A stretch of DNA of 64,000 nucleotides from Calditrichota bacterium. GTDB lineage: Bacteria; Zhuqueibacterota; JdFR-76; BMS3Abin05. The notes beneath the pieces were generated by a model that saw nothing but the letters and a program-made list of their open reading frames with translations, did no database searches and was not told the origin of the DNA. The stretch spans positions 1-64,000 of the forward strand of contig JAADHR010000127.1 of the NCBI GenBank assembly GCA_013151735.1. The letters are read 5' to 3'. The position numbers and the translations under genes are program-made. Each line of letters begins with the position of its first letter. Position 1 is the first letter of the stretch. Shown here in pieces: positions 43,750 to 54,358 of this stretch.

Positions 43750-43969
43750 CGTACCCAAAAGCAGCGGTTCCCGGGGATGAGTCCTTTCCCTTTGGGAGCT
43801 TGTCTGACCGAACATCCGGATTGGCCGCAAACAGCATTTGCCCGACTGGTTTTGTCATGGGATATTCAGATCCCGCAGCCAGCGGCAAATGACAAGCGGC
43901 AAGCAATACGATATAAAGGACCTCCGCTGCGTTCATGGATTTTTGCCCAACTTCTGTCGAAGGCATTAC

Positions 43970-43993
43970 GTAATCGCAGATTTTATGCCTGCG
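43970..43993 (+). repeat. REP-like hairpin, copy 7 (degenerate stem)
   Basis: GTAATCGCA-GAT-TTTAT-GCC-TGCG keeps the GTA foot, loop and outer stem of the ftsZ-flanking units, but the inner GAT/GCC no longer pairs fully. It is probably a decaying member of the same family. Confidence 0.6.
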
Positions 43994-44287
43994 AAGGTTT
44001 TCCGTTTTAACCCAGCGGCCTGAAAGGTTTAGGCCCCAAAATAGCGGGCAAAGGCTTTTTGGAGTCAAGCCCCATAAAAGGCCGCTTATGTGATATCAAG
44101 TGAACATTTTCCGCACAAGTTTGATAAAAATCATACGGATTAAGGATTAAGCCAGCCACTCCTCTGCAGACCGGTAACCGGTTCTTCGAAAAAATAAAGC
44201 TGATGTGATTTGAATAAACGCAGATCGCGATGGCAGCGTGAAACTTTTAGAAAATCTAATCGTGCAATAATTAACAAAACGTCCAAT

Positions 44288-44308
44288 GAATTCTTTTTAA
44301 GAGAATTC
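44288..44308. promoter_or_regulatory. Inverted repeat upstream of the sugar kinase gene
   Basis: GAATTCT (44288-44294) and AGAATTC (44302-44308) form a 7-bp inverted repeat with a 7-base centre, ending 18 bp before the kinase ATG. It is the right size for a repressor operator. No regulator gene is adjacent. Confidence 0.35.
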
Positions 44309-44326
44309 GTATCTTGAGGCCATAAA

Positions 44327-45856
44327 ATGGCACAGTTTATTTTGGCGCACGATGTTGGAACAGGCGGAAACAAGGCCGTTTTAGTTGATACAACCGGCAA
44401 AATCCGCAGCACCTCTTTTGAACCGTACCGCATTGACTATCCCCGTCCCAATTGGGCCGAACAAGACCCCGAAGAGTGGTGGGGAGCCATTTCAAAATCC
44501 ACGCAATCTCTTCTCCGAAAAAGCGGCATTTCTTCCCGCGAAATAATTGCTGTGACTTTTAGCACGCAAATGCTTGGGATTATTCCCATGGATTCCCACG
44601 GTTCCGTTCTGCGACCGGCAATCATCTGGCTGGATGAGCGGGCAGAAGAACAGGCCCAAAAATTGATGCGGAAATTTATCAGTCCGAAGATTTTTGCCAA
44701 ACTTGCCGGTGCGGAAATGTGTGGAAAAGACGGCATGCCCAAACTGCTCTGGCTTAAAGAAAATGAACCCCAGACCTACCAGAAAATGTGTTGTTTTCTG
44801 GATGTAGGCGGGTATCTGCTGTACCGAAGCACCGGAAAAATGGTGATGGAGTGGACAGGGGCCTCCGTGTTCGGAATGAATTTGAAGAAGAAAACCTGGC
44901 TTACCGGGATTTTTCGCTATGTCGGACTGGACCCGCAAAAATTTCCTCCTCTTGTTCAATCCACCGCGGTTGTCGGAACGCTTACCGCGCAGGCTGCAAG
45001 AGACCTGGGCTTGCTGGAAGGGACACCGGTTGTGGCTGGTTCCGGGGATGCCCCGTCGGCTGCTGTGGGCTCCGGCTCCGTGGGCGAGGGAGAAGGCCAC
45101 GCCTATATCGGGACCTCCGGCTGGCTGGGGGTCGTCACCACTAAAACCCCAACAGGCAAATCCGGTGTGGCCACCATTCATTCAAGCGATCCCCAAAAGA
45201 CCTTTCTTTTTGCGGAGTCTGAAATGGCGGGAGGATGTTTGGAGTGGATGGCCCGGGAAGTGTGCCGGGATATGCAGACGGCAAAGAATTCGGCCGGTAT
45301 TTATGCGGCAATGGATGCCGACATTGCCGACATTCCCCCCGGGGCCGGCGGCTTGATTTTTACACCCTGGATGTACGGCGAACGGGTTCCGGTAAACGAC
45401 ACCCGGGTTCGTTCCGCATTTATTAATCTCAGTGCAAATCACCACAGAGACCATATGCTGCGGGCGGTTTATGAAGGGGTGGTTTATAATTTGCGCTGGT
45501 CACTTGAGATCGTGGAAAAAAGGTTCGGCTTCCTTTTGCCCGCATTGCGTGTGATTGGCGGAGGCGCAAAGAGCGCAATCTGGATGCACATTCTGGCGGA
45601 TGCCACCCGAAGAAAGGTGGAAACGGTTCGTTATCCGCAAGAGGCAGGGGCCGTGGGTGTCGCTCTGGTGGCCGCCGTTGGATTGGGAATCTATCCGGAT
45701 TTTGAGTCTTTGAAAATGCTCATTCAACCCGCTCAGGTTTTTGAGCCGAATCCGGAAAACGCTGAGGTTTACGATTTTATGTTCGAACGATACAAAGAAG
45801 TTTATACCCGTTTGAAGGGACTGTATTCCAAAATGCACAAAAGGAGGGAAACATGA
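44327..45856 (+). CDS. FGGY-family carbohydrate kinase
   Basis: This 509-residue kinase is of the xylulokinase/gluconokinase superfamily. It has the N-terminal phosphate loop HDVGTGGNKAV, the catalytic base Asp241 in GSGDAPSAAVGSG, and the FGGY region ERVPVNDTRVRSAFINL followed by GGGAKSAIWMHILAD. The substrate cannot be read from sequence; xylulokinase is a default name. The gene ends in an ATGA overlap with the RuBisCO-like gene, so its product is very likely the phosphorylated substrate, or a precursor of it, for that enzyme. The start follows GAGG at 44316-44319. It is the first gene of a three-gene cassette. Confidence 0.85.
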   Translation: MAQFILAHDVGTGGNKAVLVDTTGKIRSTSFEPYRIDYPRPNWAEQDPEEWWGAISKSTQSLLRKSGISSREIIAVTFSTQMLGIIPMDSHGSVLRPAIIWLDERAEEQAQKLMRKFISPKIFAKLAGAEMCGKDGMPKLLWLKENEPQTYQKMCCFLDVGGYLLYRSTGKMVMEWTGASVFGMNLKKKTWLTGIFRYVGLDPQKFPPLVQSTAVVGTLTAQAARDLGLLEGTPVVAGSGDAPSAAVGSGSVGEGEGHAYIGTSGWLGVVTTKTPTGKSGVATIHSSDPQKTFLFAESEMAGGCLEWMAREVCRDMQTAKNSAGIYAAMDADIADIPPGAGGLIFTPWMYGERVPVNDTRVRSAFINLSANHHRDHMLRAVYEGVVYNLRWSLEIVEKRFGFLLPALRVIGGGAKSAIWMHILADATRRKVETVRYPQEAGAVGVALVAAVGLGIYPDFESLKMLIQPAQVFEPNPENAEVYDFMFERYKEVYTRLKGLYSKMHKRRET

Positions 45857-47163
45857 ATCGATTAGAAATAGAGGCTTTGCCAACCGCTTTGCCGGACGGC
45901 ATTAATGATGACGAATACATTGTGGCCACCTATTTGGCGTCTTTTCCTGCCAACGTTCCGGTTCCCCAGCTGTCGCTGGCTCTGGCCATTGAACAGAGTA
46001 CAGGCACGTGGGTTCCGGTGCCCGGTGAAACCCCCGAAGTCCGTGTAAAGCATGTGGCCAAAGTCATCGGAATCTATGAAATGCCCGATCTTGAATTTAG
46101 TGTGCCCCCGTCCATGGAAACCCGAAATTACATCCTTCAGATTGCCTATCCGGAGATCAACATCGGGGAACAGATCCCCATGCTCCTGACCACGGTGGTT
46201 GGGAATATTTCGATGGGGGGGCGTGTAAAGGTTCTTGATATTCGTTTTCCCGAAAAATACGTAAGGGGATTTCAAGGCCCGGGGTTTGGAATTGAAGGTA
46301 TCCGGAAGATTCTGGGTGTGCCCAAACGGCCCCTGTTGAATAACATGATCAAGCCCTGTACCGGATACCCTGTGGAAGTTGGCGTGGAGCTCTTCCGGGC
46401 GGCAGCACTGGGCGGCTGCGACGTGATTAAGGATGATGAACTGCTCGCTGATGCTTCTTTTAATTCTCTGCAGGAACGGGTGAAACGATACATGGAGGTG
46501 GAAAGACAGGTTTTCGAAGAAACGGGTGAGCACACGCTTTACACGGTAAATGTAACGGATAAAATCCCCAAGGTGTTTGAGAATGCCAGGAAAGCGGTGG
46601 AACTGGGGGCGAACGCGATTATGGTGAACTATCTTGCCGTTGGATTTCCGGTTTTGCAGGCGCTTGCTGAGGACCCTGCCATTGACGTACCGATATTGGC
46701 CCACATGGATGTGGCAGGGGCGCTGTACATGTCGCCTTTTCATGGCATCAGTTCGCATCTGGTGATGGGAAAACTACCCCGGTTGGCCGGTGCAGATATT
46801 GTGGTCTTTCCAGCACCCTATGGCAAAGCGCCTGTGTTGGTGGATAAATTTAAAAATGTGGCCAAAAACCTGACGTTTCCCCTGTATCAGCTAAAACCGT
46901 CTTTCCCCATGCCGTCCGGGGGAATTACCCCGGCGGTGGTTCCCAAATTAATTGAGGACCTGGGAACGGAGGTGATGATCGGCTCCGGTGGAGGAATCCA
47001 TGCCCATCCGGACGGCCCCATCGCCGGGGCACGTGCCTTTCGGCAGGCCATTGATGCTGTAATGGAAGGGGTTCCGCTCAGCGAGGCCGCTAAAGCGCAT
47101 CCCGAACTGGCGAAGGCCCTGGAACAGTGGAAGGACCCGTTTGGTAAGGGACTTTCGCTTTAG
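45853..47163 (+). CDS. RuBisCO-like protein (form IV), substrate unknown
   Basis: This 436-residue protein has the RuBisCO large-subunit fold. The carbamate and metal site is kept: K193-D-D195-E196 (IKDDE), as is K167 in MIKPCTG, equivalent to the catalytic K175. S355-GG and GSGGG (377-381) form the phosphate sites, and H284 matches H294. Residues needed for carboxylation are lost: K177 is Cys169, R295 is Met285 and H327 falls on Val317. It should therefore enolise, isomerise or decarboxylate a phosphorylated 2-keto compound, as known form IV enzymes do in methionine salvage and apiose pathways. It is coupled to the FGGY kinase, with AGGAGGG at 45842-45848. Confidence 0.88.
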   Translation: MNRLEIEALPTALPDGINDDEYIVATYLASFPANVPVPQLSLALAIEQSTGTWVPVPGETPEVRVKHVAKVIGIYEMPDLEFSVPPSMETRNYILQIAYPEINIGEQIPMLLTTVVGNISMGGRVKVLDIRFPEKYVRGFQGPGFGIEGIRKILGVPKRPLLNNMIKPCTGYPVEVGVELFRAAALGGCDVIKDDELLADASFNSLQERVKRYMEVERQVFEETGEHTLYTVNVTDKIPKVFENARKAVELGANAIMVNYLAVGFPVLQALAEDPAIDVPILAHMDVAGALYMSPFHGISSHLVMGKLPRLAGADIVVFPAPYGKAPVLVDKFKNVAKNLTFPLYQLKPSFPMPSGGITPAVVPKLIEDLGTEVMIGSGGGIHAHPDGPIAGARAFRQAIDAVMEGVPLSEAAKAHPELAKALEQWKDPFGKGLSL

Positions 47164-47335
47164 CCGGGAGAGGTTTACAGGGGACCTGTTCAATATCGGC
47201 AGGGCCTCTGATGGGTGCGTGCCCTGGCGGAGCCTTTATCCAATGAAAGATTTAGTTGAATGCCTTGTTTACAGAGCAGACCAAACGCTGCGGTTTGTGT
47301 AAAGGGGCGCAATGAAAGAATCAGGAGGCAAAAAA

Positions 47336-48583
47336 ATGGCACAGATAACCGTTTTTGGAGGTGCGGGACACGTGGGAAGTGTGGCCGTTCAGCTGTTAAC
47401 GGCCTCAAAGCAGTTTTCAAAGATTATTATTGCGGATAATGATAAAACGCGCGCAGACCAGCTTATCCGGACATTGGGCAATTCACCCGTTCTTTCATTC
47501 ATCGAAATTGATGCCAATTATCCGGAGAGCCTGAAAAAGGCCGTTGCAGGGTCTTCAGTTGTGCTAAACTGCATCGGTCCCTTTTACAAATACGGCCCCA
47601 CTATTTTGCGCACCGTTCTGGAATCAAAAATTAATTACGTAGATGTCTGTGACGATTTTGATGCAACTGAAAAGCTTCTGGACATGGACAAAATGGCACG
47701 GGACGCCGGTGTTTCGGCTCTGATTGGAATGGGAAGCTCCCCGGGCATCGCCAATGTGCTTGTCCGCCTGGCAGCAGATGCCCTGCTGGATGCGGTCGAC
47801 TCTGTGGATATTTACCATGCACATGGCGGAGAGCCGGGTGAGGGTGCCGCTGTCGTAAAACACAGAATCCATTCCATGATGATTGATGTGCCCGTCTTCC
47901 TGGACGGGAAATTAACGACCGTAAGGCTTTTCGAGGAAAGCGGGCGGGCTCTTGAAGAAATGGCCGATTTTCCCGATGTGGGCACCTATCCGGTGTATGC
48001 CTATCCTCATCCGGAAACCATTACACTTCCGCGGTTTATTCGGGGGGTTAAACGGGTAACCAATCTTGGAATTGTGCTTCCGCCCGCGTACGCCGAATTG
48101 ATTAAGGGAGTGGTTCGCCTGGGGATTACCGGAGACGAGCCAATCACAGTGAACGGGCAGGAGGTCGTGCCTCTCGAATTTGCGGTAGCCTTTATTTTGT
48201 CTCAGCGCCCGCGGCTGATGAAAGAAGCCGGGCTCACGGAGCCGGTGGGCTGCCTGAAAATTGTCGTGAAGGGAGAAAAGGACTCCCAACCCCTGACGTA
48301 CATTTTTTCAATGTCCTCAAGGGGCAGAGGCATGGGAGAGGGTACGGGGATTCCCGCTGCCCTGGGTGCGATCTTAATGGCTAACGGATCAATTCGCCAG
48401 ACGGGCGTCTTCCCTCCGGAAGGCGGTGTCAATCCCGGTGATTTGCTTCAGGCCGCCCATCAATTTGTGAAATTGGGTGAGAAGAGAGGCATTCCGATTG
48501 CAATTGAACGCATTGACAGCCAGGGAAAATCCACAAAAATGGATAGCGCTGATTTGTTCGGTTCCTTCTTGCGTAACGAATGA
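47336..48583 (+). CDS. Saccharopine-dehydrogenase-like NAD(P) oxidoreductase
   Basis: This 415-residue protein begins with a Rossmann fold (VFGGAGHVGS, about residues 6-15) and continues with NCIGPFYKYG, YVDVCDDFDAT and GMGSSPGIANVL, which mark the saccharopine dehydrogenase/Lys9-like family. That family also includes carboxynorspermidine synthases and many unassigned enzymes. The true start is ATG 47336, seven bases after AGGAGG; an upstream ATG at 47312 lies before that site. It follows the RuBisCO-like gene after 172 bp and presumably acts in the same pathway. A lysine-metabolism role has no support from context. Confidence 0.75.
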   Translation: MAQITVFGGAGHVGSVAVQLLTASKQFSKIIIADNDKTRADQLIRTLGNSPVLSFIEIDANYPESLKKAVAGSSVVLNCIGPFYKYGPTILRTVLESKINYVDVCDDFDATEKLLDMDKMARDAGVSALIGMGSSPGIANVLVRLAADALLDAVDSVDIYHAHGGEPGEGAAVVKHRIHSMMIDVPVFLDGKLTTVRLFEESGRALEEMADFPDVGTYPVYAYPHPETITLPRFIRGVKRVTNLGIVLPPAYAELIKGVVRLGITGDEPITVNGQEVVPLEFAVAFILSQRPRLMKEAGLTEPVGCLKIVVKGEKDSQPLTYIFSMSSRGRGMGEGTGIPAALGAILMANGSIRQTGVFPPEGGVNPGDLLQAAHQFVKLGEKRGIPIAIERIDSQGKSTKMDSADLFGSFLRNE

Positions 48584-52474: not shown

Positions 52475-54358
52475 ATGAAAAAGCAGAGACGTAATCCCTG
52501 GCTCTGGGTTCCTTCTCTTTATTTTGCAGAAGGCATTCCTTACATTGTGGTTATGACGGTTTCCGTGATCATGTACAAGCGGATGGGAATCTCTAATGCG
52601 GATATTGCCCTTTACACAAGCTGGCTTTACCTGCCCTGGGTAATCAAACCCTTCTGGAGCCCCATTGTCGATCTCTTCAAAACCAAGCGCTTCTGGATCG
52701 TCACCATGCAGCTTATCGTGGGTGCTGGTCTGGGAGGTGTGGCGTTAACCATTCCTCTTCCGAATTTTTTTAAGATTACGCTTGGCTTTTTTTGGCTATT
52801 GGCGTTTTCCTCCGCCACCCACGATATTGCCGCCGATGGATTTTACATGTTGGGTCTTTCGGAACACGATCAGGCCTGGTTTGTGGGTGTTCGCAGCACA
52901 TTTTATCGGCTGGCCATGATTACAGGCCAGGGCCTGCTGATTATTCTGGCAGGTTACATTGAAAGCCACAGCGGTCTGCCTGACGTAAATGTGGTTGTCA
53001 CAACGAAACCCGGCGCCGCCGTAACCCAGATGATTTCCCCCGACTCAGTCAAATTTAAATCGACCGCAGGAAAGATGCGGGTGTTGTACGTGCCGCAGAA
53101 TCTGCAAATCTCTACCGCCGAATGTTCCCGGGCCACCCTGGATTCTGCCATTCAATTTGCCACAATGTGGAACGCCAAAAACGGATTTATTAAGGTCAAG
53201 CCCAAATATTCATCACTTGCGCAGGAACGAAGGGAATCCACCTGGTGGCAAAACCATGTGTCGCACCCTCTGGCGCACTATTTGAGACGGCATTTCGGAG
53301 AGAAAAAGCCCGTTCTTCAGAAAAACAATGCGGGAAATTTTGGAGCGGTTTATTTTCGTTTGAGCAAGCCGCCAAAGGCCGGGAAAAAGATAGTCGTGCA
53401 TTTTGGCCGAATTCGGGGAGATAAAAGCATTTCCCTTGTGGAAGGTGAACGCTTTGTTTTTACAAAGGAAAATTGGCAGAAACCCGCCATTGCCATCATT
53501 AAAATTGATCCGAAGTTGAGAGGGTCTACCTCAGCTGTTTTCAAGGCTACTTCCGGTAATATCCCCCTGGCCTGGGTCGTTACATTTTTCTTCCTGGCTG
53601 CCATGTTTCTTTTGTTTTTTGTGTATCACAAGTTTATCCTGCCGTACCCCGCCTCCGATAAAGCGGCAAGTGTCGGCAATTCATCCAACTTTATCAGGGG
53701 GTATTTTGAGTCGTTTGTTCTGTTTTTTAAGAAAAACAAAATTGGCTGGATTCTGGCATTCTTACTGCTGTATCGATTGGCCGAATCGCAGCTGGTGAAA
53801 CTGGCCTCGCCGTTTATGCTGGATGCCCAGGAAGCCGGGGGCCTGGCTTTGACTACCGGGCAGGTTGGTTTTATTTACGGCACAATCGGGATTTTGGCGC
53901 TTACTCTGGGGGGACTTTTGGGCGGATTTTTGGCCGCAAAATACGGCCTGAAGGTCTGGCTCTGGTGGATGGCCATTGCTATCAATTTACCGGATGCCGT
54001 GTATATTTATCTCTCTCATTTTCAGCCGGACAATCTGTTGATCATTAATCTGGCCGTCGCAACGGAACAATTCGGCTACGGATTTGGTTTTACAGCTTAC
54101 ATGTTGTATATGATCTACGTGTCGGAAGGGAAGTTCAAGACAACGCATTTTGCCATTGCCACCGGAATAATGGCTCTTGGAATGATGATTCCGGGGATGT
54201 TCAGCGGCTGGCTGCAAGAAGTCATCGGCTACCAGCATTTCTTTATCTGGGTCATGATTGCGACCATACCGGGTTTTCTCGTTTTGCCGTTCATTCCGCT
54301 GGATAAAGATTTTGGGAAACGGGATACCCCTGTTGGTGAAAATTTGGGAAATGAGTAG
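52475..54358 (+). CDS. AmpG-like MFS transporter with a ~190-residue periplasmic insertion
   Basis: The N-terminal half (residues 1-165) and C-terminal half (365-620) form an MFS fold of the AmpG/PAT type (WVPSLYFAEGIPYIVV, SATHDIAADGFYML). AmpG imports muropeptides for peptidoglycan recycling. Between TM5 and TM6 there is an insertion at about 170-362 that should face the periplasm. Its last part (SISLVEGERFVFTKENWQKPAI) resembles the F-x-x-x-NW strand pattern of Calx-beta/Ig-like adhesin modules. Plain AmpG lacks it. The substrate is unknown; muropeptides or sugars are likely. The start follows TGGAGA. Confidence 0.75.
   Translation: MKKQRRNPWLWVPSLYFAEGIPYIVVMTVSVIMYKRMGISNADIALYTSWLYLPWVIKPFWSPIVDLFKTKRFWIVTMQLIVGAGLGGVALTIPLPNFFKITLGFFWLLAFSSATHDIAADGFYMLGLSEHDQAWFVGVRSTFYRLAMITGQGLLIILAGYIESHSGLPDVNVVVTTKPGAAVTQMISPDSVKFKSTAGKMRVLYVPQNLQISTAECSRATLDSAIQFATMWNAKNGFIKVKPKYSSLAQERRESTWWQNHVSHPLAHYLRRHFGEKKPVLQKNNAGNFGAVYFRLSKPPKAGKKIVVHFGRIRGDKSISLVEGERFVFTKENWQKPAIAIIKIDPKLRGSTSAVFKATSGNIPLAWVVTFFFLAAMFLLFFVYHKFILPYPASDKAASVGNSSNFIRGYFESFVLFFKKNKIGWILAFLLLYRLAESQLVKLASPFMLDAQEAGGLALTTGQVGFIYGTIGILALTLGGLLGGFLAAKYGLKVWLWWMAIAINLPDAVYIYLSHFQPDNLLIINLAVATEQFGYGFGFTAYMLYMIYVSEGKFKTTHFAIATGIMALGMMIPGMFSGWLQEVIGYQHFFIWVMIATIPGFLVLPFIPLDKDFGKRDTPVGENLGNE

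Follow-up and report, generated by a model that had tools for sequence, protein, structure and literature searches.

The first 64,000 nucleotides of contig JAADHR010000127.1 from a Calditrichota bacterium (assembly GCA_013151735.1; this whole stretch is hereafter the window) carry, at 44327-48583, a cassette of genes for an FGGY-family kinase, a RuBisCO-like protein (RLP) and a saccharopine-dehydrogenase-fold enzyme (SDH). The cassette represents RLP-dependent metabolism with a partner logic absent from the open-access literature searched, in which no paper was found that connects RLPs with FGGY kinases or with SDH. It may encode the central steps of an as yet undescribed catabolic pathway for an amine-bearing, sugar-like compound, in which amine would be converted to carbonyl, followed by phosphorylation and by enolisation or isomerisation on the RLP; this reading was given slightly less than an even chance.

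Cassette organisation

Kinase, RLP and SDH were found as three intact open reading frames in a tight + strand cassette. Open reading frame and domain matches confirmed the place given in the original prediction, a reading of the DNA letters that had proposed a kinase-RLP-oxidoreductase pathway for a sugar or thio-sugar.

44327..45856, + strand, FGGY-family kinase, 509 aa; FGGY_N and FGGY_C matches; xylulokinase-like, under all NCBIfam equivalog cut-offs
45853..45856, + strand, ATGA overlap of kinase stop (45856) and RLP start (45853)
45853..47163, + strand, RLP, 436 aa; deep clade with Archaeoglobus sequences, sister to MtnW
47336..48583, + strand, SDH, 415 aa; predicted NAD-type amine dehydrogenase-like enzyme

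The kinase matched FGGY_N (3.5e-57, 194.3 bits) and FGGY_C (7.8e-31, 107.8 bits), both over cut-off, and was classed as an FGGY carbohydrate kinase by these two matches. RLP matched RuBisCO_large (1.7e-45) and RuBisCO_large_N (5.8e-09), and SDH matched Sacchrp_dh_NADP (1.1e-17) and Sacchrp_dh_C (1.1e-07). No NCBIfam equivalog cut-off was reached by any of the three proteins. The ATGA overlap of kinase and RLP had also been predicted and was found as described; a 4-base overlap recurs in loci L004, L005, L006, L008, L012 and others, and kinase and RLP are likely translationally coupled through it. The longest SDH reading frame begins at 47312. The ATG at 47336 was taken as the best start because conservation in the alignment and an AGGAGG motif just 5' of it concur.

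A 577-base noncoding gap (window 43750-44326) separates the kinase from an acyl-CoA dehydrogenase gene on its 5' side. An Rfam scan of the cassette and this gap returned sub-threshold chance matches only, with no riboswitch clue, and promoter and terminator scans gave counts not above those of shuffled sequence.

Co-conservation and exchange of SDH with aminotransferases

When 84,980 species genomes were scanned, 197 RLP relatives were found, and loci of the best 80 of these 197 were analysed. These 80, at identities of 55-91%, represent Chloroflexota, Actinomycetota, Bacillota, Caldisericota/Cryosericum, Acidobacteria, Archaeoglobus, Bathy-, Theion- and Asgard archaea and Methanolliviera. Gene runs were taken from codon-usage gene calls in 81 loci. 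Kinase shared a gene run with RLP in 56 of the 81, across many phyla and both domains; 28 of these runs also held SDH, 12 a class III aminotransferase and 16 neither (several on short contigs). SDH occurred without kinase in 4 loci and aminotransferase without kinase in 3, giving run totals of 32/81 for SDH and 15/81 for class III aminotransferase, with both together in 0. The expectation that the cassette genes are conserved together in related genomes was thus borne out.

Gene order differed between lineages (SDH-kinase-RLP in Actinomycetota, RLP-SDH-kinase in an Acidobacterium, SDH-RLP-kinase in L065), so the linkage has been repeatedly re-made or kept through rearrangement. The three-gene linkage is not chance, because relatives of all three genes adjoin in genomes of both domains. 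Genome-wide searches of 32 carrier genomes gave scores of >500 bits for the kinase profile in 28 and for the SDH profile in 17. The SDH-kinase pair stays adjacent on a contig other than that of RLP, for example in genomes G015 and G022, and is a recurrent two-gene unit in Asgard archaea. Across 228 genomes of the archaeal phylum to which the Asgard-named loci belong, the RLP clade was found in 123, SDH in 66 and both in 50 (Fisher p 1.7e-5, a test that ignores relatedness).

In a 95-tip RLP set SDH was near in 38, aminotransferase in 19 and both in 1; parsimony on the RLP tree counted ~7 switches between the two. This switch count is approximate: L179 was scored without an aminotransferase that is present, and that of L031 and L037 lies a few genes away. 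The class III pyridoxal phosphate (PLP) aminotransferases beside the cassette belong to two families, each common to several phyla. Family A is ~46-60% identical between Chloroflexota and archaea, and among solved structures it is closest to a broad-specificity amino-acid racemase. Family B, which is similar to glutamate-1-semialdehyde aminomutase (GSAM), was seen in Bacillota, in Cryosericum and in one member each of Dehalococcoidia and Lokiarchaeota. The exchange of SDH and aminotransferase matches the pattern expected of functionally equivalent steps.

As a separate observation, three Asgard loci (L169:1243-6782, L170 and L179) carry HGD-D, of the 2-hydroxyacyl-CoA dehydratase family, together with its activator directly next to the cassette aminotransferase and kinase.

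SDH and the proposed amine step

The structure of SDH was predicted with a pLDDT (predicted local distance difference test) of 92.7 and a pTM (predicted template modelling score) of 0.91. Foldseek searches of the PDB with this model returned carboxyspermidine dehydrogenases (CASDH) first, over the full length (template modelling score, TM, 0.74-0.82; 18-22% identity), with lysine 6-dehydrogenase (TM 0.64-0.78), saccharopine reductase, homospermidine synthase and BioU as further neighbours. All close structural neighbours make or break a C-N bond. By full-length fold match the predicted structure places SDH in the saccharopine-dehydrogenase fold group acting on C-N bonds. Against the NCBIfam model for carboxynorspermidine synthase SDH scored 51.7 bits (cut-off 800). 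The third enzyme, originally described as a saccharopine-dehydrogenase-like oxidoreductase, is no generic oxidoreductase, to judge by its C-N-acting fold neighbours and its exchange with PLP aminotransferases; on these two grounds the amine step is taken to belong to the pathway.

47435-47437, + strand, SDH Asp34
48008-48010, + strand, SDH His225
48014-48016, + strand, SDH Glu227

In CASDH, His228 is the proposed general base, Glu230 its partner and Glu229 positions the substrate (PMC10413350). The invariant His225 and Glu227 of SDH correspond to His228 and Glu230. Pro stands at the Glu229 position and His-Pro-Glu is invariant in 28/28 sequences, so the His-Glu-Glu triad of CASDH is absent. 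Asp34 is also invariant; because it replaces the Ser-Arg of NADPH-using relatives, the sequence suggests that SDH uses NAD and hence works in the oxidative direction. SDH residues 161-179 hold an invariant His-x-His-GGE...E...HR-x-H cluster near the loop that caps the CASDH active site, a possible metal or anion site.

The opposite, biosynthetic direction was considered unlikely. Kinase and RLP would then yield a keto compound in phosphorylated form; after its dephosphorylation by a phosphatase, SDH or aminotransferase would add an amino group to give an amino acid or amino-polyol. The recurrence of phosphatase genes (haloacid dehalogenase (HAD), ComB, metallophosphoesterase, low-molecular-weight protein tyrosine phosphatase (LMW-PTP)-like) would suit such a route, as would the reductive working of carboxyspermidine dehydrogenase, the nearest fold (PMC10413350). 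Against it stand Asp34, which suggests NAD and not NADPH, and the uptake-type transporters near some cassettes.

Kinase

The best NCBIfam model for the kinase was xylulokinase TIGR01312 (344.5 bits against a cut-off of 380.25). Asp241 (codon 45047-45049) is conserved, and we take it to align with the catalytic Asp of xylulokinase. QMLG is found at the position of QMHG, presumably the substrate motif of E. coli XylB, and this motif varies in archaea.

FGGY kinases act on ketoses and polyols, and in three Asgard loci a glycoside hydrolase family 4 (GH4) glycosidase and a HAD phosphatase follow SDH-kinase. Both points would fit plain ketose catabolism, with SDH as a sugar or alcohol dehydrogenase and the aminotransferase exchange as a coincidence of gene order. 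That reading is distinctly improbable, since the close structural neighbours of SDH are all C-N-acting and two aminotransferase families, each common to several phyla, lie beside the cassette.

Phylogeny and distribution of RLP

In a 50-sequence tree the sampled RLP clade members were monophyletic (support 98/98), were joined to MtnW (2,3-diketo-5-methylthiopentyl-1-phosphate enolase, form IV-YkrW) and 4NAS at 100/99, and lay apart from RuBisCO forms I/III, OiaX and four-carbon-acid RLPs. MtnW is the closest characterised relative of the window RLP (43% identity). The clade is functionally uncharacterised and lies outside all characterised clades sampled; the proposal of a new pathway hung on this placement and withstood it. 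Two Archaeoglobus sequences (L059, L069; 62-63% identity) fall inside, because of which the clade is probably the IV-Aful group. That placement rests on these two Archaeoglobus sp. sequences in a tree without A. fulgidus RbcL1 and without DeepYkr sequences. The IV-Aful clade was already named and is listed without function (PMC10173188); no IV-Aful function or partner genes were found in the open-access literature searched. The RLP type itself is not new; its partner genes are.

The clade occurs in 2/82 genomes of the window's phylum, both of the window's own genus, and this SDH subfamily occurs in the same 2/82. This restriction of RLP to one genus of the phylum suggests lateral gain. Some archaeal carriers have both a clade RLP and a form III RuBisCO.

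RLP active site

Active-site residues were compared across 77 clade sequences aligned with form I and form III RuBisCO. The positions in the window RLP are as follows.

45991..45993, + strand, Glu47 (RuBisCO Glu60); invariant in clade, not in MtnW
46204..46206, + strand, Asn118 (RuBisCO Asn123); Lys in MtnW
46351..46353, + strand, Lys167 (RuBisCO Lys175); within clade motif NNMIKPCTG
46429..46440, + strand, K193-D194-D195-E196; metal-site Lys201 (carbamate), Asp203 and Glu204 equivalents, with D194 lying between
46702..46710, + strand, H284-M285-D286; His294 retained, Arg295 replaced by Met/Leu, then an invariant Asp
46825..46827, + strand, Lys325 (RuBisCO loop-6 Lys334); Ser in MtnW

All 77 sequences retain Glu60, Thr65, Trp66, Asn123, Lys175, Lys201, Asp203, Glu204, His294, Lys334, Gly380, Gly381 and Gly403, and 68/77 retain Ser379. 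Arg295 is replaced by Met or Leu, His327 by Val and Lys177 by Cys. In RuBisCO, Arg295 and His327 bind the second phosphate, and the other conserved residues serve to bind the metal, the first phosphate and the carboxylate that stems from CO2. The RLP substrate is likely a monophosphate, because this bisphosphate clamp is lost. At the Asn123 position MtnW has a Lys, which we take to be its proton-abstracting base, and all 77 clade RLPs have Asn. Judged by these residues, the clade reaction cannot be exactly that of MtnW, because MtnW has Lys at Asn123 and is without Glu60 and Lys334.

The same residues bear on a variant of methionine salvage, in which RLP, like MtnW or the DeepYkr isomerase, would take methylthioribulose-phosphate or its diketone as substrate, with the aminotransferase or SDH performing the final amination to methionine. 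One paper ascribes type IV proteins in genomes of the kind that carry the clade to methionine salvage (PMC7495880). In favour of this variant, besides the kinship of RLP with MtnW, mtnA was over cut-off in 25/27 carrier genomes and MTAP in 19/26, an AdoHcyase gene adjoins the cassette in L030, and methionyl-tRNA synthetase does so in L063/L066. The mtnA count is uninformative, being about equally high in relatives without RLP (32/39). No mtn gene was recognised among annotated neighbours of RLP, the MtnW Lys is absent in 77/77, and the window genome is without MTAP over cut-off. The FGGY kinase fits no familiar methylthioadenosine (MTA) route, and we know of none in which such a kinase has a place. 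Methionine salvage was accordingly held improbable.

RuBisCO Glu60, Asn123 and Lys334 place CO2 and the carboxylate. Their invariance in the clade, unlike in MtnW, and the retention of Lys334 in OiaX and relatives, would agree with CO2 handling, in which RLP would work on a monophosphate enediolate as a carboxylase or, like OiaX, as a decarboxylase. These residues may be retained for metal and phosphate binding alone, the clade is classed with form IV, and the accessible literature records no carboxylase activity; CO2 handling was considered rather unlikely. Quite unlikely, too, is the fuller proposal that RLP is a CO2-handling monophosphate enzyme in widespread amine catabolism, functionally intermediate between MtnW-type enolases and RuBisCO. 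CO2 handling, if true, would be the most striking outcome.

Proposed pathway

In the favoured catabolic route, SDH would use NAD+ to oxidise a hydroxylated substrate that bears an amine (an amino acid, an amino-polyol or a secondary amine), turning it into a hydroxy-carbonyl compound by deamination or C-N bond cleavage; a class III PLP aminotransferase would perform the equivalent step in other lineages. The FGGY kinase, to judge by its family, would then phosphorylate the ketose-like product. RLP would use the RuBisCO P1 site and the Mg-carbamate centre to bind the monophosphate and would abstract the alpha proton, as its active-site residues suggest. The enediolate would collapse to an isomer or enol, with a phosphatase or lyase elsewhere finishing the route. 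Gene content, joint inheritance, clade membership, conserved residues and the exchange pattern are seen in the data; the order of steps and the catabolic direction are those that we infer. The original outline, in which the kinase phosphorylates and RLP enolises, is still the best guess; it had missed the amine step. Its reading as a new pathway survives, although a sugar or thio-sugar substrate is unproven and nothing points to a thio-sugar.

Several observations weigh against the amine-catabolic route. The NAD preference of SDH rests on one position. SDH was present without an RLP match at the cut-off used in 16 Asgard genomes, and ~10 archaeal loci have neither kinase nor SDH near RLP. In Clostridial clade members, kinase and SDH are missing from the whole genome and Ser379 is replaced by Gly (L078 read directly). 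Transporter and phosphatase neighbours each occur in few lineages. The exclusivity counts are phylogenetically non-independent, some contigs end early and the loci are the best 80 of 197.

Because kinase and SDH are absent and Ser379 is replaced by Gly, the Clostridial subclade has probably switched function to a second pathway. Genes for a GlpP-type antiterminator, two PEP_hydrolase proteins, ComB (2-phosphosulfolactate phosphatase family) and UPF0261 lie near RLP in its members L067, L076, L078, L080 and L081.

Other neighbouring genes

Among the neighbours annotated beside the RLP clade there was no mtnA, mtnB, DUF1537-kinase or oia gene, in keeping with the earlier remark that the usual partners (mtnA, mtnB, oiaK-type and DUF1537 kinases) are missing. 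DUF1537-type four-carbon acid kinases adjoin a different RLP branch.

An amino acid permease adjoins the cassette in L009 and L074, and a major facilitator superfamily (MFS) protein related to FLVCR (choline/ethanolamine transporter) lies near it in L008, L031 and L064 (PDB match run on the L064 member). These few transporters agree with an amine step. Phosphatase genes recur near the cassette, with HAD in L040/L042 and the Asgard SDH-kinase loci, metallophosphoesterase in L069/L071, LMW-PTP-like in L015/L020/L024 and ComB in Clostridia, and weakly fit a late dephosphorylation.

In Asgard loci L190:7977-15684, L193:8015-12927 and L203:7987-15224 SDH-kinase is followed by the GH4 family glycosidase and HAD phosphatase, with an MFS transporter additionally in L190 and L203; GH4 hints at a glycoside-type precursor there. 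A ~340-aa protein without a Pfam match is kept beside RLP in three further Asgard loci (L175:6703-7731, L180:9444-10460, L184:6866-7861). In two Actinomycetota loci (L041:2415-4673, L044:11579-13860) genes for a GXGXG (glutamate-synthase domain) protein and a glutamine synthetase come after the cassette, possibly serving ammonia capture. Window 52475-54358 encodes a 627-aa protein, by eye a membrane transporter interrupted in its middle by a long non-membrane stretch. Neighbours judged likely to be chance were acyl-CoA dehydrogenase (window, L002, L006, L034 and others), MurJ, IMPDH, ThrRS, FTHFS/FolD and leucine-rich repeat (LRR) proteins.

Comparison with known systems

The RLP clade is widespread: more than half of the 228 genomes of one archaeal phylum carry it, and it also occurs in Chloroflexota, Actinomycetota, Bacillota and Archaeoglobus, and its kinase and amine-step context makes a substrate search concrete. 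Its reaction bears on the origin of RuBisCO from non-carboxylating relatives, because the catalytic residues are retained and only the second phosphate clamp is missing.

MtnW shares with RLP the fold, the Mg-carbamate KDDE motif, the FP[AS]PYG motif and the loss of Arg295/His327. It differs in its Lys at Asn123, in being without Glu60 and Lys334, in having mtn genes as partners and in forming a separate, well-supported clade. Assignment of RLP to form IV-YkrW was rejected: scores of 394.9 and 358 bits fell below the NCBIfam equivalog cut-offs (409 and 513.6 bits), Asn stands at Asn123 in 77/77 and no mtn genes are among the annotated neighbours. IV-Aful agrees with the RLP clade in that Archaeoglobus L059 and L069 lie inside it.

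OiaX and the RLPs linked to DUF1537 kinases resemble the cassette in having an RLP gene overlapping or beside a kinase gene and a phosphorylated substrate. Their kinases belong to another superfamily, their branch is supported at 100/100, Arg295 (and mostly His327) is retained and Trp66 is replaced by Phe. RLP was rejected as an OiaX on its score of 186.1 bits against a cut-off of 700 (NCBIfam) and its separate branch.

RLP retains nearly all the catalytic residues of form III RuBisCO except those of the P2-phosphate site; it lies on a separate branch and has lost Arg295, His298, His327 and Lys177. RLP was rejected as a true RuBisCO on the P2-phosphate replacements, Arg295 to Met/Leu and His327 to Val.

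Xylulokinase is the best NCBIfam model for the kinase and shares Asp241 with it; the kinase differs in scoring below cut-off and in QMLG for QMHG. Carboxyspermidine/carboxynorspermidine dehydrogenase is the nearest solved fold to SDH, with the catalytic His and second Glu retained, and differs in Glu229 (Pro in SDH) and in Ser-Arg at the cofactor ribose (Asp34 in SDH).

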